Part shown: positions 8,371-13,052 of the stretch, in pieces
How the letters are laid out: each line of letters starts with the position of its first letter
Position numbering within the stretch: the stretch's first letter is position 1
DNA from: Devosia lacusdianchii
GTDB lineage: Bacteria; Pseudomonadota; Alphaproteobacteria; Rhizobiales; Devosiaceae
DNA: 64,000 bases
NCBI RefSeq assembly: GCF_022429625.1
Contig: NZ_CP092483.1
Coordinates: 3,707,501-3,771,500 of the forward strand
Direction: 5' to 3'
The notes under the pieces: model-generated
Databases searched by the model: none
Told to the model about the DNA's origin: nothing
The model's input: the letters and a program-made list of their open reading frames with translations, nothing else
Made by a program: the position numbers and the translations under genes

Positions 8371-8799
8371 GGCGCTCATGGCGAGAGTGGGATAGAGGCG
8401 CGTCGCGTCGTTCGAAACCACTCGTAGACCTCGGGGGCGGGGTGATCAAACGCGATACGCTCCAGTATGCGGACGTGCCGATGCACCGCCTGGATTGCGG
8501 TTATCAAGAACGGACGGCCCCCGAAGCGGCCATCGCCCCGTAAGTAATTTTATATGAGACGCTGGTCGCCTCGGGGTTGCCGGTTTTTGGAACAACACGC
8601 GGAGTCGCGGACCGGGAACGCTCGCCCCGACCGGCCGCTGCTCGGACCTAAGCATGCAGCGACGCACGCTCCCGGCACCACCCCGGCCGCAGGTCGCTGC
8701 AGCGCCGCCCGTCATTCCGGAATGATGGGAGGAGGATGGCACAGGTTTTGGGGGGTGGGGATAAGGGGCACAGTTTCGTGTGCTTGGCCCCCCTCCCGG

Positions 8800-8820
8800 C
8801 CTCCCCCATCAAGGGGGAGG
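8800..8820. repeat. Short C/G palindrome, family B intergenic repeat
   Basis: CCTCCCCC, a short ATCAA centre, then GGGGGAGG. Very similar sequences occur at 52.97-53.09 kb and, in variant form, inside prmC, so this is a dispersed element rather than a lone terminator. Confidence 0.6.
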
Positions 8821-8862
8821 TGTGGCCCTGTGGGCGGCGCGGGATGTTGCTTCATCCTCGAT

Positions 8863-10980: not shown

Positions 10981-11931
10981 TCAGGCCTGCGCGTGACTGT
11001 CCTCAACATGGTGCGCCGATACAACACGGTCAAGGCCGGCAAGATCTTTATGAACGTCGACGGCTTCGTAGCCGGCTTCGAGAAACAGCGCGCTCACCGC
11101 CGCACCCTGATCGTGGCCGATCTCCACCAGAATGCGTCCGTCGGGCTTCAGCCAGCCCACCGCTTGGGCCGCGATGACGCGGTAAGGCGCCAAGCCGTCA
11201 GGTCCACCATCAAGCGCAAGACGGGGATCGAAATCCTTGACCTCGGGAGCCAGCGTTTCAACCACGGCGGAGGTGATATAGGGCGGATTGGAGACGATAA
11301 GATCGAACCCTCCTTCACCTCTCCCTTCGGGGGCGAGGTCGGCGCGTAGCGACGGGTGAGGGGGCCTTTTCTCGGCTCGGCGCGTGGGGTAGACCCCCTC
11401 GCCCGACCCAAGGGGGTCTACCTCTCCCCCAAAGGGAGAGGTGAGCAGCGGTTCAAACCAACTACCCAGCAAGAACTCAATCCGTCCAGCAACACCGTGC
11501 CGTTGCGCGTTGCCTTTTGCTGCGGCTAGCGCTTTGGCGCTCAGATCCACCGCTGCGGCCGTTGCGTCGGGCTGGTTGGCCAGGATCGCGATCGGGATAC
11601 AGCCCGTTCCGGTTCCGAGATCGAGCAGCCGCCCGCCAGCAGGCAGGGCGCCGAGTGCCAGATCGACCAGCAATTCAGTCTCCGGACGCGGCTCAAGCGT
11701 TGCCGCGTTAAGCGCAAACGCGAGACCGTAGAATTCGCGTTCGCCGATGATCCGCGCCACCGACTCGCCGGTCATGCGCCGGCGCACCAGTTCGACGATC
11801 ATCACAGCTCCGGCCTCGTCGACGGGTTCATTCTCGCGCGTCGCCAGCTCCAGCGCGTTGAGGCCCAGAGCGTGCTGGGTCAGCAGCTTGGCGTCGAGTG
11901 CCGCCGTCTCGAAACCCTGCCGGCTCAGCAC
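10981..11931 (-). CDS. prmC: Peptide chain release factor N5-glutamine methyltransferase PrmC, with in-frame repeat insertion
   Basis: Methylates the GGQ glutamine of release factors RF1 and RF2 using S-adenosylmethionine. Counting from the GTG at 11931 (316 residues): N-terminal helical domain, SAM motif LLDLGTGTGCIP (102-113) and catalytic NPPY (215-218) are intact. Residues about 163-208 are extra compared with the family. They are encoded by a palindromic repeat (11308-11453) lying between WFEPL and FDLIVSNPPY, two segments that are normally nearly adjacent. The start is odd: PrmC-like sequence (APKLGALWRGWRDVL) continues upstream of the GTG, and a CTG at 11979 overlapping the prfA stop, with GGAG eight bases before it, would capture it. 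It follows prfA directly, the usual arrangement. Confidence 0.92.
   Translation of the reverse strand: MLSRQGFETAALDAKLLTQHALGLNALELATRENEPVDEAGAVMIVELVRRRMTGESVARIIGEREFYGLAFALNAATLEPRPETELLVDLALGALPAGGRLLDLGTGTGCIPIAILANQPDATAAAVDLSAKALAAAKGNAQRHGVAGRIEFLLGSWFEPLLTSPFGGEVDPLGSGEGVYPTRRAEKRPPHPSLRADLAPEGRGEGGFDLIVSNPPYITSAVVETLAPEVKDFDPRLALDGGPDGLAPYRVIAAQAVGWLKPDGRILVEIGHDQGAAVSALFLEAGYEAVDVHKDLAGLDRVVSAHHVEDSHAQA
11308..11453. repeat. Palindromic repeat element inserted in frame in prmC
   Basis: Starts near TCACCTCTCCCTTCGGGGG and ends near CCAAAGGGAGAGGTGA, forming large inverted arms, with a smaller inner palindrome (TAGACCCCC/GGGGGTCTA). It resembles the C/T-rich intergenic repeats at 8.8 and 53.0 kb. 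On the minus strand it is open in the prmC frame and translates to a Pro/Gly/Arg-rich stretch that includes SPFGGEV and SLRADLAPEGRGE. Confidence 0.8.
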
Positions 11932-11975
11932 ATCGCGCCAGCCGCGCCACAGCGCTCCAAGCTTTGGTGCCTCGC

Positions 11976-13052
11976 TCAGTTGGCCTGCTCCATCGCCGCC
12001 AATTGGCCGGCCTGGCTTTCGGTGATCAGCGCTTCGATCAGTTCATCCAGCGCTTCGCCTGATATGACCTTGTCGAGCTTATAGAGCGTGAGGTTGATGC
12101 GGTGGTCGGTGACACGGCCCTGCGGGAAATTGTAGGTGCGGATGCGCTCCGAGCGATCGCCCGACCCCACCTGCCCCTTGCGCTCGGCTGAGCGGGCACT
12201 GTCGCGTTCCTCGCGCTGCATTTCGTAGAGCCGCGAGCGCAGCACGATCATCGCCTGGGCCCGGTTCTGGTGCTGGCTCTTCATCGCCGAGGTCACCACC
12301 AGCCCGGTGGGCAGATGGGTGATGCGCACCGCCGAGTCGGTGGTGTTGACGTGCTGCCCGCCAGCGCCCGAGGCCCGCATCGTATCGATGCGGATATCCT
12401 CGTTGCGGATTTCGATGTCGATGTCTTCCACTTCCGGCAGCACGGCCACCGTCGCGGCCGACGTATGGATACGGCCTGAGCCTTCCGTGGCGGGCACCCG
12501 CTGCACGCGGTGCACGCCGCTTTCGAACTTCATCCGGGCATAGACGCCCTTGCCCGAAACATTGGCGATGATTTCCTTGAAGCCCCCCATTTCGCCGGGG
12601 CTTTCCTCCATCACGGTGACCTTCCAGCCGTGATTGGCGGCGTAGCGCTCATACATGCGGAACAGGTCGCCGGCGAACAGAGCCGCCTCGTCGCCGCCGG
12701 TGCCGCCACGGATTTCGAGGATGATCGATTTCTCGTCGGCTTCGTCCTTGGGCAGCAGCAGGATGCGCACGGCCTGGAACAGCCGCTCGATCGTCTCGTC
12801 CAGCTCGGCGATCTCGGCTTCGGCCATCTCGACCATGTCCTTGTCGCCGCTCTTGAGCAGCGCTTCGGCCTCGGCCCGATCGCTCAGCGCCTTGTTATAG
12901 GCGCGGATCTCGCCGACGATCGGCGCCAACTCGGCATGTTCCTTGGAGAACTTAACAAACTCATCCGGTCCGGCGCCACCAGACAGCGCCGCCTCGACAT
13001 ACTGAAACCGCGTCTCGAGCGCGTCGAGCTTGTCCTGGGGAAGAGATGGCAT
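11976..13052 (-). CDS. prfA: Peptide chain release factor 1
   Basis: 358 residues, the usual RF1 length. It recognises UAA and UAG and triggers release of the finished peptide at the ribosome. The catalytic GGQ is present in [18 protein letters not shown]. The first-domain coiled coil (residues about 1-110) contains many Glu/Ala/Leu. The stop codon overlaps the probable prmC start, so the methylase and its substrate are translationally coupled. It sits in the conserved lysC-ptsP-prfA-prmC run. Two convergent pairs here and one more elsewhere in the window end in TAG, so RF1 is clearly in use. Confidence 0.97.

Follow-up and report, generated by a model that had tools for sequence, protein, structure and literature searches.

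Rickettsia palindromic elements (RPEs), on which the source studies are said to be those of Ogata in 2000 and 2002, are among the closest described counterparts of the repeat considered here. As far as the accessible part of PMC10969869 describes them, they measure ~150 bp and fall into several families, many copies have entered unrelated genes without breaking the frame, the resulting protein folds being predicted to be compatible, and open reading frames (ORFs) hold nearly half of those in R. conorii. The GTAG/CGTC repetitive extragenic palindromes (REPs) that occur within genes belong to classes that are mostly intergenic or near gene ends, with some copies translated inside genes, and the recB genes of X. 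campestris and X. oryzae have unlike REPs at roughly the same site (PMC3733652, in the part available). Palindromes inside genes are already known; what is added here is a variant in which several families are captured recurrently at a single loop throughout a genus. Here, we focus on prmC, the gene of a release-factor methyltransferase, in a 64,000-nucleotide stretch of Devosia lacusdianchii DNA (the window; contig NZ_CP092483.1, positions 3,707,501 to 3,771,500), where a palindromic repeat is translated as part of the enzyme, and on the same loop of PrmC throughout the genus. The genome of the window, G000, is a single contig of 4.36 Mb. No earlier report of palindrome capture in PrmC was found in searches of open-licence literature on RPEs and hemK, Devosia palindromic repeats and PrmC insertions, and in the accessible text of the Devosia paper PMC6981132 the term 'palindromic repeat' refers to clustered regularly interspaced short palindromic repeats (CRISPR) only.

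The gene is assigned to PrmC/HemK by a score of 254.8 bits against the equivalog model TIGR03534 (cut-off 199.1), by the motif NPPY at residues 215-218, which is invariant across 67 PrmC sequences, and by the adjoining prfA; a PrmC_N domain is matched in the same ORF. From its sequence, the enzyme is predicted to methylate release factors 1 and 2 (RF1 and RF2) at GGQ. The insert comprises 46 residues between L162 of WFEPL and F209 of FDLIV, with the frame open throughout, and amounts to a net gain of ~42 residues, since uninserted relatives of the genus have ~4 between these motifs. Its DNA is a nested palindrome (table 1) with outer arms that are 92% complementary, and its RNA fold of -92.5 kcal/mol is equalled by none of 200 shuffles (z -6.8). 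An in-frame palindromic insert in prmC, as proposed by an earlier sequence-only reading of this stretch, is therefore what the gene contains. Membership of a known RNA family was rejected: just two Rfam matches, mir-2545 and whalefall-1, were obtained, both below the gathering score and regarded as matches that a strong hairpin gives by chance. The prmC frame remains open 5' of the listed GTG (window positions 11932-12040, an open frame of 353 residues), and the real start is probably earlier, overlapping or abutting prfA.

The insert is one copy of a dispersed repeat, termed family A. With the best 40 of 60 candidates scored, at least 79 pieces of G000 match it (the query included, many places being counted on both strands), and family A occupies at least 38 places, prmC among them. 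An alignment of 26 copies, including that of prmC, reveals terminal inverted repeats, with CTTCACCTCTCCC- and GGGAGAGGTGAAG-like ends (of the form CTTCACC...GGTGAAG) on either side of a variable centre, some ends not being intact; 21 of the 26 measure 110-143 bp from ACC to GGT, most of them 124-127 bp. Each of the six readings is open in 6 to 16 of these 21 copies (63 of 126 overall), the most open being the one used in prmC (16 of 21), and the length is divisible by three in 5 of 21. With half of all readings open and lengths of this kind, entry in frame is not improbable.

Across the genus, prmC was matched in 71 of 75 genomes (E 1e-15; no match in 4), and 69 genes can be read across the loop, G084 being left out for a frame break and G079 for a contig that ends within an element. 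The linker from W to NPPY has at least 30 residues in 24 of the 69 genes, 18-23 in 19, and a plain 15-17 in 26. All long inserts are in frame, and several palindromic families, assigned by BLAST against reference inserts together with reading, are found at one point (table 1). One arm is common to A and B and another to D and E, so that at least four unrelated groups are present (A/B, C, D/E and X/Y). In genomes of the genus, each of the families A, B, C, D and E is present in multiple copies; the copy number of X and Y was looked at through G000 only. The family C insert of G010 contains CGTCCTTCGACAAGCTCAGGATGAGG and, by inspection, looks CGTC-like. The recB precedent concerns one gene in two species, whereas in Devosia 24 of 69 prmC genes of a genus are affected. 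The coding palindromes of Nematomorpha mitochondria are also long inverted repeats in reading frames that are gained and lost between species, but they are perfect, apparently actively maintained and, in the accessible part of PMC6649704, not described as a dispersed family.

Alignment with relatives had been named as the check on the sequence-only reading, and it bears that reading out: many relatives are without the insert, in others this point is occupied by different repeats, and no relative was met with that has the same residues in DNA lacking repeat character. The possibility that the insert is an assembly or annotation error is very improbable. Repeats are error-prone, the contig of G079 ends inside an E-like element, and the frame of G084 breaks just upstream of the loop, but G000 is one contig, and 24 of the 69 genes, which come from separate assemblies, have intact in-frame inserts, some of them on single-contig genomes such as G010, G004 and G088. 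The break in G084 (L144) lies between RIDF and GSWF, with a loop that looks uninserted, and may be a sequencing error or real.

Table 1. Features of the prmC locus in the window, repeats read into other genes of G000 and insert families at the PrmC loop of the genus (ends of the family-A element set by eye).
Feature	Location	Strand	Details
prmC (peptide chain release factor N5-glutamine methyltransferase)	10981..11931	-	316 aa from GTG 11931; TIGR03534, PrmC_N domain, ORF list
prfA (release factor 1)	11976..13052	-	directly upstream of prmC; NF001859 505.1 bits, TIGR00019 500.7 bits
Family-A nested palindromic element	11313..11446	-	~134 bp; encodes most of residues 163-208
Outer palindrome arm 1	11315..11339	+	25 nt
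Outer palindrome arm 2	11420..11444	+	25 nt
Inner inverted repeat	11388..11422	+	12-nt arms, 100% complementary
Family-A palindrome in CydD	L185:2094-2230 (G000)		in frame; linker between membrane and ATPase domains
Family-D palindrome in cobaltochelatase CobN	L269:2038-2146 (G000)		in frame
SelO	L184:2030-2169		repeat-supplied C-terminal tail
DUF559 protein	L197:2417-2483		repeat-supplied C-terminal tail
Further short ORF	L276:2431-2471		repeat-supplied C-terminal tail
Family A, full	prmC loop of G000, G036, G031, G003, G088		
Family A, shorter pieces	prmC loop of G093, G075		
Family B	prmC loop of G008, G061, G094		
Family C	prmC loop of G010		
Family D	prmC loop of G015, G002, G001		
Family D halves	prmC loop of G080, G092		
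Family E	prmC loop of G018, G006, G004		
Different repeat fused to A arm	prmC loop of G023		
D/E-like piece	prmC loop of G078		
X and Y	L163, prmC loop of G087		two complete palindromes in tandem, two further families; linker 118 residues

Within PrmC, inserts of at least five residues are confined to this loop: they are present there in 26 of 69 rows and at no other aligned position (279 core columns, 69 genes). For comparison outside the genus, 140 genomes of the order and 133 of the class were searched with a profile built from uninserted PrmC (no match at the cut-off in 5 and 9), and the site is spanned in 132 order genomes outside the genus and in 122 further class genomes. The net length excess is at most 16 residues in the former and at most 9 in the latter; these values would miss an insert offset by deletions elsewhere, and the outliers that were not read are all +8 or less. 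Between motif I and NPPY there are 68-82 residues in nine genomes, which include most of the largest outliers, and in G147; uninserted Devosia has 69 and G000 has 111. Judged by length excess, with nine genomes read, there is no comparable PrmC insert among the 254 genomes outside the genus; G147 (model 1-186), which lies outside the 132 counted, reads as uninserted. A record titled Bacillus subtilis SK6B4 (L076) has a prmC close to that of Pseudochrobactrum, and by eye it appears to be mislabelled or contaminated.

Turnover at the loop was followed on a tree of the 69 PrmC proteins and three outgroups, from which the linker had been removed. At least 23 changes are required for all states and at least 14 for the presence or absence of an insert; both counts are rough because 24 of the 69 inner branches are weak (26 are strongly supported) and the states were labelled by hand, for G082 from reading alone as BLAST gave no match. 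Sister species differ in their inserts: G006 has element E and G096 none (branch 100/99, flank DNA identity 92.8%), G003 has A and G018 has E (100/99, 83.0%), and on a weaker branch G010 has C and G015 has D (92/65, 88.2%). The five full A inserts are 81-91% identical to one another, whereas their conserved flanks reach only 74-80%. Compared with 25 other copies in G000, they have best matches of 91-93% and medians of 84-89%, the best-match values being pushed up by the choice among 25 G+C-rich palindromes. Because an inherited disordered loop should diverge more than the enzyme that surrounds it, it is probable that the A inserts either arrived recently or have been homogenised with genomic copies, which these identities support without proving. 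The short linkers of G033 and G071 keep one hairpin, as expected from deletion between two arms.

We consider it likely that palindromes land repeatedly in the genus, survive in a permissive loop of PrmC and are later lost. A non-autonomous, selfish family-A palindrome would land widely and enter prmC in frame; most arrivals within genes would be purged by selection where the protein is broken, while in-frame copies at the PrmC loop would persist, forming a disordered bulge with little effect. Unrelated palindrome families would strike this loop again and again within the genus, and their copies would be shortened or lost via deletion between their repeated arms, or replaced or homogenised via recombination with other copies. 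We infer the near neutrality of the inserts, the purging of copies that arrive elsewhere in genes, the part played by deletion and conversion, and the reason for the high frequency of insertion at this loop.

A single family-A insertion that dates back to the genus ancestor and was passed on vertically, with other families later inserted into it or replacing it and the insert lost from uninserted species, would fit the full A inserts of five species, which begin within one codon of one another and in the same frame. It would also fit the short linkers of G033, G071 and perhaps G028, which resemble single-hairpin A remnants, and the composite insert of G023, in which an A arm is joined to a different repeat. 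It is nonetheless an unlikely history: the A inserts are more alike mutually and to genomic copies than their flanks are, which needs conversion or recent arrival, no A remnant is seen in the C, D, E or X/Y inserts, C matches no family and X/Y only weakly match F, and 26 of the 69 genes have a clean linker.

An AlphaFold model of the G000 enzyme retains the PrmC fold and predicts a disordered insert. The insert lies in the short loop that leads into strand beta-4; it is attached where this strand (residues 209-214) begins, and NPPY comes after the other end of the strand, so that the two would be ~20 angstrom apart as judged from a strand of six residues. The sequence-only reading had placed the insert next to the active site and looked to structure prediction: its position holds along the sequence, and closeness to NPPY in space is unsupported, as the predicted model puts the two at opposite strand ends. 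The further suggestion that release-factor binding may be changed finds no support in this model of a disordered insert at the far strand end. The matching E. coli residues (about 175-177) fall in none of eight PrmC segments that, according to the accessible part of PMC3098086, hold 33 of the 42 RF1-contact residues, nine contacts being elsewhere.

The distribution of repeats in G000 was taken from stretches fetched round matches to families A and B-D, with genes called by a simple codon-usage script; the census is a sample picked by similarity to families A-D, and for B-D the best 40 of 160 candidates were scored. Among the matches listed, 84 repeat places lie outside prmC, of which 76 are intergenic, often only a few bases from a called gene boundary, 4 overlap a gene end and 4 are inside a called gene. 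The last comprise two C-terminal tails (L197 and L276) and two truly interior places, in CydD and CobN. Two gene ends in the census (L180 and L280) are without any family match, and a repeat-like stretch immediately precedes the family-D palindrome in CobN. The comparison with RPEs, already drawn in the sequence-only reading, stands as a likeness of kind: a dispersed, multicopy palindrome, ~134 bp long against the ~150 bp of RPEs, is read in frame within a gene and has turned into protein. Devosia differs from Rickettsia in the predominance of intergenic places among those listed and in that one loop of one gene is struck by several families across a genus.

Several points weigh against repeated landing in a merely tolerant loop. 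Tolerance alone leaves the frequency of inserts (~1/3 of the species read) unexplained. Truly interior repeats make up only 3 of the 85 places listed in G000 (prmC, CydD and CobN), and the genus-wide survey spans prmC and CydD only; CydD was matched in 57 of 75 genomes and read in 54, of which 6 have an A-like peptide in the linker, A-like peptides being the only ones found there. The prmC insert of G068 matches no family by BLAST against the reference inserts and that of G069 matches one over 20 nt only, the best-match identities to genomic copies carry the upward bias given above, and no close pair among the 69 shares one insert from which a ratio of non-synonymous to synonymous change (dN/dS) could be taken. 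By eye, no target-site duplication or target motif is obvious in the flanks of the 26 family-A copies. The Y1 transposase PF01797 (E 0.001) is unmatched in G000, and of the 75 genomes from the genus 72 are without a match; the control search detected it in 5 of 14 genomes already known.

Mobilisation by a REP-associated tyrosine transposase (RAYT) of the present host is rejected, PF01797 being without a match in G000; the mover may have been lost since, or be of another type. Within the genus, only G083, G074 and G062 have a match to the Y1 transposase. Family A resembles miniature inverted-repeat transposable elements (MITEs; in part after PMC10969869) in being short and multicopy, with terminal inverted repeats and no gene of its own seen, and appears to differ from them in that no target duplication is obvious by eye in the flanks of the 26 copies and no parent transposase was identified.

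The contrast between prmC, with inserts of several families in 24 of 69 genes, and CydD, with one type in 6 of 54, favours a targeted landing pad, in which a DNA feature attracts palindromes or the disordered loop or mRNA hairpin is advantageous; this account overlaps with that of repeated landing. The scarcity of interior places in G000 and the two complete palindromes in tandem in G087 point in the same direction. The six CydD carriers all fall inside one 19-species clade of the PrmC tree, a pattern compatible with far fewer events than at prmC. Such an advantage may lie in the tuning of PrmC output or of release-factor methylation. A landing pad remains doubtful, as the flanks show no conserved target motif by eye, insert peptides differ among families, many species have no insert, and the modelled loop is at the strand end far from NPPY. 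We likewise give little credence to the idea that the beta-4 loop captures unrelated palindromes beyond tolerance, by attraction at the level of DNA (for example, of palindrome to palindrome) or through helpful disorder, and thereby tunes release-factor modification.

The PrmC loop provides some two dozen insertions made by nature at a single point of a conserved translation enzyme, for which uninserted sisters (as in G006/G096) can serve as controls, and a natural record of repeat DNA becoming protein. With these alleles it can be tested directly whether a protein segment derived from a repeat is a neutral passenger or acquires a use, by which routes repeats come into and go out of coding sequence, and in which loops they are tolerated.

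The window contains a second palindromic repeat at positions 8788-8831, which resembles the X/Y elements of G087 with 93-95% identity. The X/Y-nearest places in G000 are six in the fetched stretches and this one in the window.
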